Below, piece after piece: positions 53,550 through 64,000 of a stretch of 64,000 bases of DNA; within the stretch, counting starts at the first letter, position 1; every line of letters starts with the position of its first letter. Under the pieces are notes generated by a model. It saw only the letters and a list, made by a program, of their open reading frames with translations, did not search any database and was not told the DNA's origin. The translations under genes and the position numbers were made by a program. This DNA is from Asterochloris sp. CNOR1 (lineage: Eukaryota; Chlorophyta; Trebouxiophyceae; Trebouxiales; Trebouxiaceae): the NCBI GenBank assembly GCA_963969365.1, contig OZ017746.1, positions 2,914,001 through 2,978,000 of the forward strand. Reading direction: 5' to 3'.

Positions 53550-56500
53550 TTATTCCACTGAGCTTGCCTCTTCTCCCACTCCTGCAGCCCATGCACTGTA
53601 TGGCATTGACAGAGCAACAGGCTGACACATCACATGAGCCTGCAGGGAAGCATGGCAAGCGCACAAGCATTGCATGAGTAGCAGCACGGTCGAGGTGCAG
53701 GCCTTTGAACGTTTCATCAAAAAGCCCACCTCAAAGAAGAATTCATTCTCACGGCCCAGCTGCATGGTGCGCTCTATGAGCACTGGGATGCTCTGAACGC
53801 AGCTGGTGACAGCTTCCAGGGTCAGCCACAGCTGGGGACAAATCATTCTGGTCATGGGGGCTGAGCAGATCCTGCGACTGCTGCTGCTGGCCACCACCTC
53901 AGCCATCTGCATGATGGCACTGATGGCCTGCTTGCTGGCTTTGCTGAGGATGGCCTCCATCTCATCCTGCAGGCAGAGCAGGTGACTGCAGCACCCAGCG
54001 GTCCATACTCCTGCATCAGTTGGCTGCCGGGCCCATTGCATATCTGCATGGCCGCCTTGGCCTGGAGCAGCAAGCCAAGCACTCTGTGCACGATTAAATC
54101 AGGCATTGACGCCCATATACAGTCTCTGGATTGGCAAGGCTCCAGTATGGCACGCCGTCTGCACAGCGCACAGGTTATCTATCAGCACTGGCGGCTGCAC
54201 CACTTCAGGTAGTTGGAGCAGCAAGACATGCCACCTCTGGATCACCTGCAGAGAAGAGGGCACCCCTCAAAGCAGTGCACACTTGGCCAGGCCCCATGGC
54301 AGCACATCATTGGCCGGCAGACAGGCCTTCGCCCTGGCAAGCCATGTCAGCTGTCATGGTACCAGCAATCCCAGAGCAGCCCCCACCTTGGCAGGGCTCC
54401 ACCGCAGGCCTGAGATGCCGATATCGGCCACCTCCTGCAGCATCCACTGCGTCATGATGCAGCTCTGCTCGACCTCGTGCACGTGCACGTCGGCGGCCCC
54501 CAGCAGACGCTGCAGGCGTCCCGCTAGCGCCATCTCGGGGGACGCATTGACGACACGCTGCACCTTCTCAACGCGGCGGTGCAGGTCCTGCTGCTTGCGG
54601 CGTTCCTGCAGGCCAGAACCCAAGCTGGTGTACAGGTGCGCGGAAAGCAGGTCAATACTGCTGTGAAGCGCATGAAGTCTGCAGGTCCTGCTCCATGTGG
54701 GGCATTCAGGACATGGCCGGTGATCCCCTCCACGCAGTGCAGCAGGCCATCTGGCATGAACTGCAGCAGAGGTTGCCAACCATTCTGCAGGTGAGAGGCT
54801 GCATGAGCAAGCCTCTGAAAGATGTGAGGGGGACAGGAACACAGCTGTAACAGCGATTCTGCAGGCCAGGGGGCAGCTTGTCCTGCCAGCACATGGATGC
54901 AGCGCTGGAGGGCTTGCTGCTTGTGGCGCTCCTGCTGCAGGCGTGGGCATCTTGAGGAGCACGGGTCATGATGTTTGAGTGCAGGGAGTTGAACAGGGGG
55001 GACAGGTCTATCGCTTCAGCACCACCTGAAAGTCCCCCTTCAGAATGAAAAGTCAGCCGCCCTCAGCACAAGTTGCTGCAGGGTGTGGACAGCTAGCCGC
55101 AGACAGCCTCGTGAGCAAGCAGGCAGGCACAGCCCTGAGTGGGCTCATGTTTCCTCAGGATGAGGAGAGTTTGGTTGCCGGCACTCACCGTCTGGTTCTG
55201 CAGCTTGGCCTTTATGGCACCATCGTCTGACATCTTCGCCCCTGCGCGCTCCAGCATGGCATACATCACCTTGTCGTGCACCAGGTAGGCATCCTGGAGG
55301 GGGGTGGCCCCCCACCTGCAGCAGTGACCAGAGTGCATCAAGCGCCACAGCAGCACCAGGCAGCCATCTTGGATGAACATGGCCCCACCTTGCAGCCAAG
55401 CAGTGGCTTGTGGGAGCCTCAGCATGCAGCGCTGCGCTGACACCCCGCTTCAGCACAGCTGATCTCAGCAGATGTCAGGCATACGCTGCATGATGGCCCT
55501 GCTGCACTGCATGTGCTGGGACTTCAGCGGAGAAGCGGGCAGCCCGTTCCACTGCGCCTGAAACGCTGATGCTGACCTGTCCACCACATTGACGTCAATG
55601 CCTGGCAGGTTGAGGAGGTAGAAGCCAACCTCTGGCCTCCCCCGGCAGGCAGCCACGTGCAGGGCTGTGCGCTGCTCATAGTCGCCTGTGTTCAGGTCAA
55701 CGCCGTTGGCATGAAACACCTGCAGGAGCAGTCAGTCAGATGGGCCCCAACAAACGCAGCACAGGGCCGCAAAGCATCAACAGCATGAAAGGGCGGGCCA
55801 AAATGTGGCCAAGGCATCGCAGCCAAGCAGCACGGTGCGATGTGCGTCAGCATCAGCCACAGCTGAAGCCACAGCAGCAGCTGTGGCAATCCAGCAGCCA
55901 CGTCGTCAGCTGGGCAGCTACCTGGAGGGTGGCCAGGTCGTTCTCTGCGGCTGCCAGGCACAGCTTGTCGGCGACCTGCGCGCTGTCCAGGGAGGCCCCT
56001 GCCGCCCGTAGGGCCGCCTGCACCTCTGTGTGGCCATGCCGGATGGCGTCCATCAGGGGGGTGTTACCCATGCCGTCCACCGCACCCAGGTTGATGCCCT
56101 GCACAGCCACAACAACCGCATTGGTGACAAGGCCGACAGGTGCCGGGCCCTGTCGCATCAATCGAGCCTACTGGTCACAAGACACGCCTGGCAGGGGCCA
56201 CCTCCTGCACAGCAGGTGTTGCAGGCTGCAAGCTCCTGAGTGGAGAAGGGCAGGCTTCTGTACATGCTGCTCATGCCGTCCACCACTCTGATGCCCTGTC
56301 AGCGCAGAGGCACAGGCGCAGGGACTGTGGCCAACCTCAAGAGAGGGAGCGCCGTGTGCTGCAAGCTGCTGAGTGAGAAGGAGCAGTTTTGAATGTGCGG
56401 TCCAGGCTGTGGTCACACCCAAATGGTGCCCTGCAGGGAGGCCACATCCTGCCACAGCACAGAGCACTAGCAGCTGCAACACAGCAGCCAGCGGGCGGCG

Positions 56501-59500
56501 CCAGCACAGAGGCCAGACCTCACACAAGCAGAGCCCAAGCACAGAGGCCCTGCCTGGCCCACAGGAGGGGCTCTGCACTTGGGTCTGTACTTGACCTTCA
56601 ACACTTACTTCACCAGGAGGCAAAGGCTTCCTGCTCAGTCGTGCACCCCTTGAAGTCAGCCTTGGCACATGCAGTGCTGGCTTGCAACAGCTGCCGGCTG
56701 CACAAGCAAGGGCACGCCTGCCCAGCCCCTACACCCAGCATGTAGCGATCTGCAGCATCACCTGCTGGCTGCACAGAAACTGCACGATGTGCACGTGCCC
56801 GTTGCTGGCGGCCAGGTGCAGCGGCGTGCGCTGATTGTAATCGCTGGTGTTGGGGTCCATGCCGTTGGAGATGAGCAGCTCCACATAAGCAGCATCGCTG
56901 TCCACAGATGCCGTGAAGAGGGCGCCTGTAGGGCTCAGGCATGCAGGCGCTTGTCTGGAGGGTGTCCAGAAAGTGGCTTTTTGAAGGCAGCGCTACAAAT
57001 GACGGCTGCTGCAAAGATGTCTTGGGCTGCATTCCTGAGGGTAGCAGCATGCAGCAGCCCATGGCAGCTTGGCAATTGCGCCAGACTGAGCAAACAGTCT
57101 ACAAGAGGAGCTTGCTGGCACCCAGCTGCATGAAACGGCATCCACTGCGGCGGCATGGAGGACCCGACTGCTCATTGATGATGCAGCCGCTGCAGCTGCG
57201 CTTGCCTTTGGCTTTGTCGTGGTGCAGCACTGCTCCACTCCTCTTCAGGAAGGCAACCACCTCGCTGTGCTTGTGGCGAACGGCATCCATGATGGGGGTG
57301 CCATTGTACCTGGGGGCAGGCAAACAGCCCATCAACAACCCAATTATGCGTCATGCAGCGTTGCCTGGCAGCACCTGCAGCAGCAGGGCGCCGTCCCACA
57401 GGCAGGCAAGGTGTCATGTTCTTTTGCATCTGGAACATGTTCTGCTGGGCAGCGCCTGCAGCTTGGGTGATGGTTGCCTCGACACAGCAGCTTGCTCAGG
57501 CAGCTTCTTGCAGAAAGTGGGCAGGCAGCCTTGTTCGTGACCGCAACAAGCAGTCCTGGCGGGGCAGCACCTGCTGCGTGGGGTGGCCACCACAGTTCGC
57601 GCTGGGAAGGGGTGAATTGCTGTTGACAGCTCTGGCCACTTGCTGCAAGCAGTCCTGCCTTGCAGCACCCTCAGCTTGTGCCCCTGGCATGAGCAGTCAG
57701 CAGGTGACTGTCCCTGGAATAACTGCGTGCGCAGGAACTCCCGGCACCTGACCCGGCAGAAGGGCTGCTCTGCATGTTGTGGCTGACAGCACCCACACAT
57801 GTGACCGATGGCACCCAGCGTTTGACTGAGTCGGGGCTCACTGTGCAGGAGGGGGAGTGCACACCTGTCGATAACGTTCATGTTGGCGCCGTGCACCAGC
57901 ACGAGGTGACGAACCATGGCAATGTGGCCGTTGCTGGCCGCGAGGTGCAGCGCGGTGCGCTGGTGGTAGTCGCTGTCGTCCACCTCCACATCATTGCTGC
58001 TCAGCAGGAGTTGCACCTGCAGCAGAGCAGGGGCCACAGCGTGAGCTGCGCGCGCAGCCAGACCATTGTTGCTCAGGAACCTGCACCTGCAGGAGCACAC
58101 AGGCGCAAGCCACCAGAATCTGCACAGCAAACTCTGCTACATGCGACCTCACTTGCTCACTACCACTCACAGCCCAAGCTACATGTGCATCTGGGAACCC
58201 ACATGTGCCTGCCACGATGTGCAGGTACAGGGCACACCCTGCCCTATGCAGCTCGCTGCCTGCTCTGAGATTGCCCTGCCTGCTCAACCTGGCCCCCTCA
58301 CAAGGCGATGGTGATGCTGCCAGCCCTGTCATGAACAAAGGCTGCCATATTTCATAAGGCGCTTCACCTCTTCAATGGTCCGGTGGGCGGCTGCGTCCAC
58401 CGTGTGCGTTGGGTGCTTCTCATGCAGCTTACGCAAATGAGGACATGCTTGTCGCACATCTCCAGGTAAACCACCCCCACCTCTTCAATGATGCCCCGTG
58501 CAGCGGCATCGACCATGCGCACCACGCGCTCGCTGCGCTTCTTGCGCTTGGCCACCTCCAGGACGCGCTTGACCTCCGCGTGCATGGAGCGCTGCACATC
58601 CCAGCTCTTCAAGATATTCTTGGTGATCTGCTCCTCCTGCAGGCACACAGACGCTGTGGCAGCACTGGAAGCCTGTTATGCCGGCAAGCAACAGCCTCGG
58701 CCCGGTGGCTGGAGGTATTTCACTCCGTCGGGACTTGAGCCTACTTCCCTGTCACACACAACCCATGATCGTGTGCAACTTCCATCATGCCCCACTAGGC
58801 GAGCGAGTAACGGTCTGCTCACACAGCACATTGCTTCTCAACTCAATTTGCACAGCTGTTGCCAGTCCTCTGACGCGCAAAATATTGTAGGGCTTTGTGC
58901 TGGCACATTAGCTCATTCTGCTGCAGCTCAATGCTGCCCCACCTGGTCAGGGTAGAGCTTCACCAGCTGACTGTAGTCCGCCTTTGGCAGAGCAAACAGG
59001 GTGGCATGGGAGCTGCTGGCTGCTCGAGCGTGGGTGATGTGACGCATGCCAAAGAAGAAGCCCATCTCACCCACCACCTGCAGCAACTGATGTCATAACC
59101 TCAGCTGAGCACACAACCAGAGCAAAGCAGTGCGCAAGGGTGATGTTTGGTGAAGAGCGGGGAGACGTGATGCGTGTCGCGTGAACAGACGCTGTAGATC
59201 CTCCTGCAATGCTGTCACTTTGGCAGAAGGAGACTGACCTGCCCAGCGCTGCGCACGCTCTCAGTGATTTCTGACTGGTCCTCCTGCTCAATGAGCAGCT
59301 CCACTACCCCGCCTGCCACAATGTACAGCTCCCGTGACACGTCGTTCATGCGGAACAAGTAGTTGTCTGGGCTGAGATTGACCTGCAGCATGCACCATCA
59401 ATCAGGACATAGCCAGCAGGCAGCTTGCAACTGTGAAGGGCTGGCTGGTGGCTTAGGCAGCCAGCAAGAGTAGCTCATGCTTGGGAGCGCTTGCTGCAGG

Positions 59501-62500
59501 CAAAGCGCCAACCAAGCACAGTATAATACGTCTGACAGCAAGCAACCGTAAGGACTCAGCAACATCCCAAAAGAACACAGTATGAGCGTAGCGCATGAGT
59601 GTGGACCTGGCGCTTATACTCATGGCAAATGCCAGGACATTTTCAAAATATTTGGATGCAGCATTGCCCCGGCAGCATTGCCCCGGCAGCATTGCCCCGG
59701 CAGCAGACATTCCATGCTCACCTCATGGCACAGCACCGAGAGAGAGTCCAGAAAGTTATCATTGCAGCCCTCAAAGGTCTGCACCACACTGATCAGGCTG
59801 CGGCTCATGTGCTTGGCCACCTCCACCTGCAGGCAAGCAGCAACCGGTCTGATGAGATTTGCCTGAGGGCTAGCACTCTCCATAGAGAGGCTCAGCTGGC
59901 AAGATAGGCCGCCAGTCAGCCAGTCATCTTGATCAAGTGAGTTCCTGCTTACTCAATACTCCCTCATGTAGCGTCCCCCTGACACAGGAGAGTCAGAAGG
60001 AGCTGCAGCTCTGACTTGGAGTCTCTCAAGCAACAGGCAGCATTGCCTGATGCAGGCAGGCTGGCTCCATCTGCATCAGGCTTGACAGTGCCACCTGGCA
60101 GTGCAGCAACGCGCTAAGCGCCAGTCACGGACAGCAGCTGCCAGAAACATGCCGCCAAGGCCACCTGCAGGGTGTGGGAGAGGGTGGAGAAGACGTCTGC
60201 ATCCCCCTGCTCCTGATGCATGACTTGGGACGTCTCCACGTGGCGCGAGATGTCCTCACATAGCTCCGGCGGCAGGTTACGGTTGCTGACAAACTTGTTG
60301 ATGGCTTGCACCTGCAGCACAGGGGCTCTGCATCTGAGGCAAGGGTTGCAGGATGCAAGTCTTTGGGACTTTGTGTCCGGCCCAGATCTGCAGCTAGGTC
60401 AGTATGCAGGCTTGTGGCCCTAGTATTCAACTGCTCAGCCTTAGCACAGCACATACAGGCAGACCTGGAACCAGCCAGCAAAGTGGCAGCCTCAGCTGCC
60501 AAAAACATGGAAAGAGCTAAGGGCAGACAAGCCATAAAGATTGAGCTCATGTGGATCCCGCTGAGCTGCCCAAAGGCTGTGGTGTGCTGCTATACTGCAG
60601 AAACGTACTTGGGACCTTATCTTGACCAGCTCTGCATCCTGGTCCATGACTAGATTGGAGATCTCTCCCAGCAAATAGGCAAAAACTGTAAGGGAAACCA
60701 CCATGGCCACCATGGTGTACAAGATCTGCATGCAGCAAAACAATGGCTCAGCGCCTGTCTATGGCTCTGACAAAGCACAGTGCACATCTGAATCATCATG
60801 ACTGCAGCCGCTCTGTACGCATGCACAGGGTGTGCTGTCACATCTGGTGAGGCCGCAGTACAGATGGGCCTTCTGGCGGGAACTCGAATGCTGTTGTCAA
60901 CAGTGGCGGGCAAAATGTGGCTGCCCTCGCACCTCTGACATGTTCTTGGGCGTCATATTGCCTATCTGACCGTTGGTGCTGAGCGTGGCCACCACCCAGT
61001 AGAAGCTGAGCAGATACTGCTCCCAGATGGTGCCCTGCTCATAAATGTCCTGTACGCCAAAGCCTGCAGTGCGGTAAAATATGGCTGCTGAGCAGGGAGC
61101 AAGTTGAGGGAGCCAATGTGAAGGATTTGAACGCCAAAGCTTGCAGGGCAATCAGGGGCTGGCTGCTGATCGACATGCAAGCCAGAAAGCCAGTGTGCAC
61201 CCTCATGAACAGTACACTCCTGGACAAGAGCTGCTCATGCAGAACAGGACATGGGGCGCGTTGATTTGAATGGCCTGCCTGCTAGCATCACTGATCGCGA
61301 CCAAATCACAGGAGCAGAAGGAAATGGAGCCGCCCACCTCCATAAGCGCCAGGCCAGTGCTGCGTCAGGTCATATTCGTACACGGGATAGCTGATGTTGT
61401 GGGCTACAAAGGATGGGGTGGGAATGCTATTGTTTCCAGCATCAACATAGATCCCGTCGTCCAACACAAGGTAAGTGTTGCTGGTGAAGATGTCGGGCAG
61501 GCCTGCCGTGCCCACATACCAGAGGATGCAGGCCATGATGTGACTAACCCCCAGCATGATGGGCACAAGGAAGCGGAAACGGGAGCTGATGGAGTCTGCA
61601 TCCAACTCAGACTCCTGCAGGCCCAGAAACAACGCTGACTCAGTCAAGCCAGCAGCAGGACTTCACTGGAGCGGGCCAGCACCAGGACACTGCACATACG
61701 CTGTACCCAGCGGAAGGGCTGCGGCCTTTCACAGCAGGGCTAGAGGCAGCAGCAGGTGGCAACACCTCAGCCCCTAGACATGACACACAAGCCCACAAAG
61801 ATATTTGCAGCTCACCATGCCTGAGCCAGTGATGTAGGCAGCTCAGGGTTTTGAGCAACCTGCATGGACATCAGTGGTGTAAGCAGCCTGCGTACCTTTC
61901 TCAGGTACCAGACGTACACCCTGTGCAGCCTCAGCAGCTTGGGCACGCGCAGCCAGGCCTGGTACTGTACTGAGCCGCCAGCTGTCTTGACCAGCAGGTC
62001 ATAGGGGCAGGAGGAGATGAAGTCCATGACAAAATGTTTGCCTGAAGTCACCAAGCCATCTTTAGGCTTCTTGTGCAGTAGTGGGCCTCACTGTGGGACA
62101 GTGTTGCGCTTCGGGCATCAGACAGTGCAGCTGCCTGATGCAGCAGTCACCTAAATAGTTTCTGCGGATCTTTGATAGCTCAACGACCAGAACACTCTTC
62201 TTGTTGGGGTAGGCACGAAAAAAGTGAAGGATAACATCAATGACAAGCAGGCAATCAAGGACCTGCACAGCAGCAGCTTGAATGAGAAGCATATCAGGTT
62301 GAACAACTCTGAACGTTCCACAACATTTCTTCAAGCAACAGCTGGAGAGGATCCGAGAGGAAAGAGGGGGTGCAGAGTTGGATGAGAGAGGAATGAACAG
62401 GCTGGGATGTGGAGCAAGGCGTCCTCAGTGTGGTGACGGTTCGGCACAAGATCACAGCAGTCACCTGAATGGAGATGTAATACCAGTGCGCGAGCCGTTG

Positions 62501-63886
62501 TTGGCCCCTAAAAGCAATGTCCATGGGAATCTGAATGAAGAAAAAGACTGCCAGCCAGCGCACCAGGGCATCCCACCACAGAATTCTGTGGCTGCCAGGT
62601 AAAATAACGTACCATGGCCGGTCACGGGGCATCACAAAGCCTGCAGACAGGCACGCTGTGTTCACATTTGGCGGAGGTAGGAGTGCAGCCTGCCAGTGCT
62701 CTCATGCAGGCCAAGGCGCCAGGCAGCCTGCTTTGCACTGCTGTCAGCCAATTGGCCAGCAGCCTGGGCACTCACCCTCGGAGCCATGCAGCTGCATGAA
62801 TCCAGACTGCTTGAAGGCAGCCCTCCACTTCTGGGTGCTATCACCCTTCAACATTGGCACCATCACCTGCAGGCGGCAGCTGTGAGACCGCTGTGGCCCA
62901 CACATCTGGCATGACTGCCTGCAGCATTGCGATATTGCAAGGGCAGGTTGCCTGTTTGCCACACAGATTGACAGGTGCTGTGTTGCAGCCTGCAGTGAGC
63001 TCCAACAGCAATGGGTTGCTGAGCTGACCATGCAGCATGCAGCAGTGTCCAACAGCTCTAGGCTCACCCTAATGAATTCATCAAAGGTGATGCGCTTGTC
63101 CTTGTTGGTGTCCAGACGGTCCATGGCACTGCGTACTGTCTTGTGGGTGATGATCTGTGAAGCATCATCTGCAATAGTCATCAACAGACGCTCCACCTCT
63201 CTCGCCTCCAGGGAGCCATTCTTGTTGGCATCAATCTGCAGCATATGCAGGTGTGAAGGCAGGCAAAAGCATCAATCTGCATCTGCAGGCACTGGTGATG
63301 GCAGGCATGACATGCTTCCAATGGCCTGCAACCAGCGGTGCAGGAGGATGACCAGCCTGCCGACAAATGAGCAGGCGAGCTGACCAGCAGACAGCGGCCC
63401 TCTCAGTACATGAATGAGTCAGCAGACCTGTTACATCACGGCATCGCATTGGGAGCTCCTCAGCTTCCGCACCTGATGGAACATGGCCTCAAGCGTCATG
63501 AGCTTATTGTTCACATCTGCGTCTGGCGGCGGCGCAGTCACTGCCCTGAGCACGTTTTCCTTGGCGCGCCGGAAACGCTCCACCAGCGGCGGGCTGCGCA
63601 TGTGGCCGCTGTTGGTCACTGTCAGCAGCTTGCTGATACCTTTTGGCGGCCCAGCTGCAGGCATAGGGCTAGCCCGATCACGAGCAGGCACTGCAAAAGC
63701 ATGCAGCGCTGCTGGCTTGGACTGCAGCTTGCTCCAGTCAGCCTTGTTGTGCGGGAGGTCGTGCTGCAAGGAACTGCTTGCCACTTTGAACACTTGCATG
63801 CGCTGCTTAGACTTCGGCAACTGTGTGGCCCTGCAGCAAGTGTCCAGACTGTGGCCACCAGGCCGCCTTGCTGCAACAGTTGACAT
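53550..63886 (-). CDS. Voltage-gated-like cation channel: EF-hands + 6TM + cNMP-binding + ankyrin repeats
   Basis: Large multi-exon channel. N-terminal exon (63886 to about 63471) is disordered and ends MFHQ. The next exon (63241-63070) has two EF-hands, DANKNGSLEARE and DTNKDKRITFDE, both with complete 12-residue loops. S1 is ILWWDALVRWLAVFFFIQIP (about 62590); then S2 (LDCLLVIDVILHFF), S3, S4 (WLRVPKLLRLHRVYVWYLRK) and S5 (PIMLGVSHIMACILWYVG). The pore exon (61067-60933) reads YWVVATLSTNGQIGNMTP. S6 is VAMVVSLTVFAYLLGEISNL. A C-linker and cNMP-binding fold (NYLFRMNDVSRELYIVAGGV; MGFFFGMRHI) follow. Six ankyrin repeats in three exon pairs (57990-55200), plant K+-channel type (DYHQRTALHLAASNGH / NGTPIMDAVRHKHSEVVAFL), come next. 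After them come helical exons (54620-53700) whose link to the channel is uncertain. The pore lacks the GYG filter, so ion selectivity is open. Confidence 0.8.
55200..57990 (-). repeat. Three tandem two-exon ankyrin units
   Basis: The order is A-B-A-B-A-B. A exons: DYHQRTALHLAASNGH (about 57960), DYNQRTPLHLAASNGH (56850), DYEQRTALHVAACRGR (55680). B exons: NGTPIMDAVRHKHSEV (57310), GNTPLMDAIRHGHTEV (56070), GATPLQDAYLVHDKV (55310). Introns fall at equivalent points (NVIDR / NVVDR before the B exon), showing duplication of a two-exon block. Confidence 0.8.
59658..59705. repeat. 14-bp minisatellite
   Basis: GCAGCATTGCCCCG repeated three times exactly, plus a partial fourth copy. In an intron of the channel gene. 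Confidence 0.9.
61050..61150 (-). repeat. Duplicate of the pore-exon acceptor in the upstream intron
   Basis: On the minus strand the exon start CTGCAGGCTTTGGCGT (about 61067 downwards) is preceded 80 bp upstream in the intron by CTGCAAGCTTTGGCGT (about 61146 downwards), one mismatch in 16. Confidence 0.7.
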
Positions 63887-64000
63887 CAGCTCAGCGAGAG
63901 CAGACTGCAGACTCTGTGGGCCTCACTTGAGTACAGAGACTGTGTCCCCAGGGACTGCGTGGTGGGCCAGGAGGTCAGGCTGAGGGAGTGCTGCATGTTG
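63887..64000. other. 5' flank of the channel gene
   Basis: Upstream of the proposed start at 63886. Too short to tell whether it is promoter, leader or intron of an upstream exon outside the window. Confidence 0.4.

Follow-up and report, generated by a model that had tools for sequence, protein, structure and literature searches.

Few motifs are as strongly conserved as the selectivity filter of K+ channels, and to our knowledge changes in its length are rare. Ankyrin repeats are typical of AKT, SKOR and GORK, and T-x-G is found in the filters of animal CNG channels. Excerpts of the literature give T(V/I)GYG as the signature common to prokaryotic and eukaryotic K+ channels (PMC6259924), and describe in green algae a large structural diversity of voltage-gated K+ channels, Shaker-like ones included (PMC3410407). 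For plant CNGCs, which pass Na+, K+ and Ca2+ (PMC8886624), the excerpts list the filter triplets GQN, GQG, GQS, AND, AGN and GN-L (PMC8886624; likewise PMC7830781). The Gln after the filter Gly is highly conserved among plant CNGCs, and in the cryo-EM structure of MtCNGC15b, whose filter runs from Ser344 to Gln347, the Gln347 side chain constricts the pore path; as excerpted, the same source gives a PCa/PNa of ~1.03 and low K+ conductivity for this channel, and reports that Q347E abolished its Ca2+ currents (PMC12284214).

We examined the genome of Asterochloris sp. CNOR1 (56.4 Mb, 21 contigs), and within it a window, by which we mean the whole analysed stretch of 64,000 nucleotides, that carries a channel gene with an altered filter. 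The genome has 31 matches to PF00504, the chlorophyll a/b-binding family, at E 0.001 or better, which marks its source as a photosynthetic eukaryote. The gene lies on the minus strand, where 15 stop-free exons run from 63799 to 57865 across 14 GT-AG introns of agreeing phase. Joined at their GT-AG borders into a splicing model, these exons give a protein of 794 aa, in which Pfam domains follow one another in the order EF-hand_7 (E 6.5e-12), six-transmembrane Ion_trans with S4 (PF00520, E 8.8e-12), cNMP_binding (PF00027, E 1e-10) and Ank_2 (E 2.4e-8). The features are as follows.

63473..63799, minus strand: N-terminal linker exon, begun at an ATG, with an uncertain 5' border
63068..63235, minus strand: exon of the EF-hand pair (DANKNGSLEARE, DTNKDKRITFDE), Pfam EF-hand_7 E 6.5e-12
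62776..62866, minus strand: linker exon between the EF-hands and S1, placed by its splice borders
62151..62640, minus strand: S1 and S2 exons (62640..62465, 62262..62151)
61896..62041, minus strand: S3-S4 exon, with S4 reading WLRVPKLLRLHRVYVWYLRK; Pfam Ion_trans spans aa 217-504
61338..61614, minus strand: exon of S5 and the long extracellular turret, where NNS and NIS form two N-x-S sequons
60933..61063, minus strand: pore exon, with the pore helix and filter ...WEQYLLSFYWVVATLSTNGQIGNMTPKNMSE, placed by splice borders, phases and the GORK and AKT1 pore alignments
60957..60980, minus strand: codons of the filter STNGQIGN
60609..60725, minus strand: S6 and the start of the C-linker in one exon, aligned to S6 of AKT1 and GORK
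58943..60311, minus strand: C-linker and cNMP-binding-domain exons (60311..60165, 59826..59722, 59382..59239, 59077..58943), the source of the PF00027 match
57865..58636, minus strand: helical linker and first ankyrin repeats, exons 58636..58481 and 58016..57865, Ank_2 E 2.4e-8
55465..57350, minus strand: more ankyrin exons, ORFs 57099-57350, 56729-56992, 55853-56167 and 55465-55731, borders unsettled

It is on the joined exons only that the channel domains exceed Pfam cut-offs. Single exons are weak (the pore exon matches Ion_trans_2 at E 0.11, below cut-off), and the S5 and S6 exons alone have no Pfam match. Genome-wide searches with Ion_trans and Ion_trans_2 included none of the exons among their matches, which indicates that the sequence is divergent, and the genome-wide cNMP_binding search found one CNBD exon of the gene, below cut-off. 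The GC content at codon positions 1, 2 and 3 of the modelled exons (0.58, 0.37 and 0.733) compares with 0.563 in the introns; taken together, the splice borders, the phases and the third-position GC point to a working gene. As an observation on its outer face, the turret at 61510-61338 is predicted to be extracellular, a long stretch between S5 and the pore in which both sequons lie.

Upstream, the gene probably extends beyond the window, and the locus L002 there contains an additional clear EF-hand (EF-hand_6 E 9e-7) and, possibly, a second, degenerate one. An extra first exon at 63996..63927 breaks the reading frame; the model leaves it out and starts at an ATG in the next exon. Downstream the gene probably continues with further ankyrin exons: three of the six ORFs scanned there match Ank models at E<=1e-3, ORF 57099-57350 does so weakly (E 0.027, below cut-off), and 55145-55474 and 54354-54965 match no Ank model. 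A KHA domain was matched neither in the C-terminal ORFs scanned nor in the genome, the control of the genome search having matched nowhere and the last exons being unsettled.

The filter itself is carried by exon 61063..60933, which encodes WVVATLSTNGQIGNMTPKNMSE and sits between S5 and S6 of the six-transmembrane channel. Bounded by AG on the acceptor side and by GT on the donor side, this exon enters in phase 1 and leaves in phase 0, and its 43 complete codons translate as FGVQDIYEQGTIWEQYLLSFYWVVATLSTNGQIGNMTPKNMSE, with STNGQIGN standing 24 bases ahead of the donor. Phmmer places TLSTNGQIGNMTPKN over TLTTVG-YGDLHPVN of AKT1 with one gap, inside the filter, and continues ungapped across the donor junction into S6; more fully, 'tlstngqignmtpknmse' stands against 'TLTTVG-YGDLHPVNTKE' of AKT1 and 'TMATVG-YGDIHAVNLRE' of GORK, the latter aligning in two stretches, S1-S5 and then pore-S6. 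T-x-G-Y-G-D, the defining Shaker filter, is absent, and TNGQIGN stands at its place. In the HMMER alignment Gln falls opposite the gap and Ile opposite Tyr, and the alternative placement, with Gln on Tyr and Ile inserted, suits the sequence equally well.

A sequence-only reading of this DNA had described a filter one residue longer than usual, with Gln-Ile where Tyr stands, in a protein with the ankyrin repeats of plant AKT/SKOR channels. Both points are upheld, the first by the one-residue gap in the GORK and AKT1 alignments and the second by Ank_2 together with the further downstream repeats. A canonical filter elsewhere, which that reading had named as the finding that would count against it, did not appear: no word of the GYGD type ([TSC][TSVI][VIALTMN]G[YFL]G[DNQE]) was present in the six frames of the window, a search that intron-split words escape. 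Between exons 61614..61338 and 60725..60609, moreover, the sole fitting exon is 61063..60933. A canonical filter elsewhere and an alternative pore exon were both rejected on these grounds.

Across the 56.4 Mb genome, codons for TNGQIGN are found at this one place. The triplet GQI with an extra residue is not among the CNGC triplets in the excerpts of PMC8886624 and PMC7830781, and the extra residue with a retained G-N, in an EF-hand/ankyrin body, appears to match no known filter. The coding feature is real and well supported and its filter is unusual; its function we infer from sequence.

With regard to kinship, a search of the PDB (phmmer, 692-aa model) matched GORK at E 1.1e-32. Among the best 60 of 113 matches of the full-length model, the plant Shaker channels lead (GORK 116 bits, AKT1 104, SKOR 102, KAT1 94), followed by a small margin by the prokaryotic 5v4s (91) and SthK (90), and then by HCN4 (89), CNGA1 (86) and TAX-4 (82); no CNGC occurs among these best 60. 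The 108-aa piece of pore, S6 and linker has AKT1 as its top match (E 3.6e-13) and KAT1 as its second, with 53 and 50 bits, ahead of SthK (48), CNGA1 (37), GORK (33), SKOR (29), HCN4 (27), CNGC15b (26) and CNGC1 (24); SthK, 5v4s, KAT3 and CNGA1 all rank over GORK and SKOR here. For the CNBD piece the scores are 36 bits for CNGB1, 29 and 26 for SthK and 24 for GORK. Judged by these scores, the Shaker kinship is not uniform across the pieces, although the full length favours plant Shaker channels and the protein is nearer to these than to CNGCs. The unevenness touches the family label more than the claim about permeation.

Relatives were sought in the alga's own genome and in viral and prokaryotic collections. 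Scanned with six short peptide patterns, which reach close relatives only, the viral contigs gave no match and the prokaryotic genome contigs gave six, none of which encodes a relative. DNA words for TNGQIGN (viral, 27 loci) and for T-L-x-TNGQ-[IVM]-G (prokaryotic, 7 loci; a degenerate base code that also admits a few neighbouring residues) fell in a channel pore in none of the 34 loci, as judged from the translations and from a tblastn search with the 794-aa model at E 0.01. In the alga's own genome the loose word T-x-G-Q-x-G-[DNS...] had 14 matches, this gene included, against 19 for the reversed control, and is thus at chance level. Papers that contain TNGQIG-type strings deal, by their titles and abstract starts, with antigens, with plant or phage genomes, with clinical subjects and with a conference, and not with channels. 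No description of an algal EF-hand/ankyrin/CNBD channel was found in a literature that left subscription papers mostly outside its scope; excerpts of PMC6259924 and PMC3410407 describe none, nor do those of PMC3410407, on green-algal K+ channels, describe a filter of the TNGQIGN kind.

Within its own genome the TNGQIGN pore piece matched nothing beyond the two exons that encode it, save for a weak match (E 0.67) to a neighbour. This second channel gene (L052, C1:2982000-2991990, minus strand, outside the window) lies on the same strand, and its pore at C1:2989608-2989700, ~14.7 kb from the TNGQIGN pore, reads ITLYKGLNGMANLGYDPTVPE. Its filter, MANLGYDPTVPE (NLGYDP, with GYD for GYG), aligns ungapped with AKT1; CNBD-like and ankyrin stretches are recognised in it by similarity to the TNGQIGN gene, and its two joined pore exons match Ion_trans at 18.5 bits, below cut-off. 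Ion_trans_2 had eight matches genome-wide, six of them over cut-off (L050 and L051 lie below), whose filters were read off the open frames. TVGYGD pores are present in half of the eight (L044, L047, L048 and L050). The pore exon of L046/L089 (C13:2562500-2566500) reads VTTVGQGDIVPNTPVEE, with TTVGQGD, a Gln at the K+-channel Tyr at canonical length, and has a weak CNBD match (E 0.096) ~1.2 kb downstream; that of the related L045 (C4:3706889-3707014) reads VTTVGNGDIVPNTPVEE, with TTVGNGD, an Asn at the same Tyr and again at canonical length. Pore-like exons at L049 (C9:397806-397910) and L051 (C9:1848189-1848269, below the Pfam cut-off) have the filters ALAGYGD and CAGFGD, respectively. The filters of L052, L046 and L045 indicate that altered filters are not confined to the TNGQIGN gene. 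Elsewhere, two clusters on the minus strand (C7:1409-1424 kb and C7:1553-1568 kb) each hold many Ion_trans matches, all on one strand; four-domain voltage-gated channels of the Ca2+/Na+ type would give such a pattern, and we take the clusters to be of this class.

The best explanation, which we favour on balance and with some reserve, is a CNBD-type cation channel subunit with a Shaker-like body and a pore that passes Na+, K+ and probably Ca2+; the protein is most likely a non-selective, possibly Ca2+-permeable and Ca2+-regulated channel subunit. Its subunits would assemble as the tetramer of a six-transmembrane CNBD-type cation channel. T-x-G would still form the inner part of the filter, the Tyr that keeps the K+ filter rigid would be lost, and a Gln side chain like that of plant CNGCs, together with the extra residue, would leave the outer filter wider and more flexible, so that the ions would pass with little preference for K+. 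Gating would proceed through the S4 voltage sensor (WLRVPKLLRLHRVYVWYLRK) and through Ca2+ at the EF-hands, the former pointing to control by voltage and the latter to control by Ca2+. The Arg-Thr pair of the phosphate-binding cassette has a role in functional cyclic-nucleotide binding, and in the alignment of the CNBD to CNGB1 I-T-H-A stands opposite R-R-T-A of the cassette. Since the pair is absent, the domain probably has the structural role of a CNBD-homology domain, like its counterpart in plant Shaker channels, and cyclic-nucleotide gating appears doubtful.

The expectation of a non-selective, perhaps Ca2+-permeable pore comes from the CNGC precedent for Gln. The sequence-only reading had held the filter to be unlike those of plant CNGCs, which goes too far, as CNGC triplets include GQN, GQG and GQS (excerpts of PMC8886624 and PMC7830781). 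Its statement that selectivity cannot be guessed was likewise too strong in view of these Gln filters and of Gln347 of MtCNGC15b, which is needed for Ca2+ currents (PMC12284214, in excerpt). Non-selective or Ca2+ permeation, which it named as a possibility, stands as a reasonable prediction. It mentions neither the N-terminal EF-hands nor the other changed filters of this genome (NLGYDP, TTVGQGD and TTVGNGD), and it did not draw on the CNGC precedent for Gln after T-x-G.

Alternatively, the protein might be a silent or modulatory subunit, which joins other subunits, alters or lowers their conductance and carries no current as a homotetramer. The neighbouring same-strand gene, whose filter is also changed and which has CNBD-like and ankyrin stretches of its own, would suit such a role, as would KAT3 (AtKC1), a Shaker-type modulatory subunit of plants that occurs among the full-length phmmer matches. 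KAT3, however, works with a near-canonical filter. In a plant CNGC, moreover, a Gln filter does conduct (PMC12284214, in excerpt), and we regard a silent role as unlikely.

A second alternative is that the channel is still K+-selective, the extra residue being taken up as a bulge and I-G-N replacing Y-G-D. Phmmer does set Ile on the Tyr column and G-N on G-D, the best scores of the full-length body are to plant K+ channels, and the G-N retained after the insertion could provide K+-like coordination, which speaks against our main reading. The extra residue would nevertheless break the carbonyl register beside the central Gly, and the signature T(V/I)GYG, shared by K+ channels according to the excerpts of PMC6259924, is lost; this loss and the register shift make K+ selectivity unlikely, and we give the bulged K+ filter only a small chance. 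Finally, a decaying gene or an assembly error, with a filter free of selection, would account for the unusual filter and for the failure of the genome-wide Ion_trans and Ion_trans_2 searches to find any exon, but seems highly improbable given 15 stop-free exons with 14 GT-AG introns of agreeing phase, a strong codon-position bias, a match to AKT1 at E 3.6e-13 over the surroundings of the filter (pore helix, S6 and C-linker), and an in-frame insertion of three bases, which is atypical of sequencing errors.

A natural channel that combines a Shaker-like body with a lengthened Gln filter makes it possible to test directly on which filter residues the selectivity for K+ against Na+ and Ca2+ depends, and would show whether Gln filters like those of plant CNGCs have arisen repeatedly. 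For algal signalling, a cation channel that senses Ca2+ and could carry it as well would be of interest. More tentatively, and with the odds in our judgement against it, we speculate that the protein belongs to a distinct algal class with EF-hands, a CNBD-homology domain and ankyrin repeats, whose lengthened T-x-G-Q-I-G filter arose within a Shaker-like lineage independently of CNGCs; if so, one inserted residue and the loss of Tyr would have converted a K+-channel body to Ca2+-regulated Ca2+ entry.

As compared to known systems, the protein resembles the plant Shaker channels GORK, AKT1, SKOR and KAT1 in having six transmembrane segments with a charged S4, a C-linker, a CNBD-type domain and, as in the first three, ankyrin repeats, but it has TNGQIGN where they have TVGYGD, EF-hands added at the N-terminus, a turret between S5 and pore with ~54 unaligned residues against 16 in GORK, and a CNBD piece closer to CNGB1 than to GORK (36 against 24 bits). 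With the green-algal voltage-gated K+ channels tabulated in 2012 (Kc01 and others), the filter is compared by description only, as given in excerpts of PMC3410407. Animal CNG channels and TAX-4 likewise have a CNBD and, after T-x-G, a residue that can line the pore with its side chain; in TAX-4 and CNGA1 this residue is Glu (PMC12284214, in excerpt), whereas here it is Gln, the acidic ring at the filter of animal CNG channels is missing, and so is the phosphate-cassette Arg-Thr that is present in CNGB1. Plant CNGC15, CNGC1 and CNGC5 share the Gln right after the filter Gly (GQN, GQG, GQS), six transmembrane segments and a CNBD. They differ in that one extra residue and G-N follow their Gln counterpart here, and in that ankyrin repeats and EF-hands stand here against CaM-binding/IQ sites in CNGCs (PMC8886624 and PMC7830781, in excerpt); the pore piece, at 53 bits to AKT1 against 26 to CNGC15b, does not have CNGCs as its closest relation. 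What was already known, then, is Gln after T-x-G in plant CNGCs, and what appears new is the extra residue with retained G-N in an EF-hand/ankyrin Shaker-like body. We would class the protein neither as an AKT K+ channel nor as a CNGC, but as a Shaker-like channel of the CNBD type whose filter recalls those of CNGCs.
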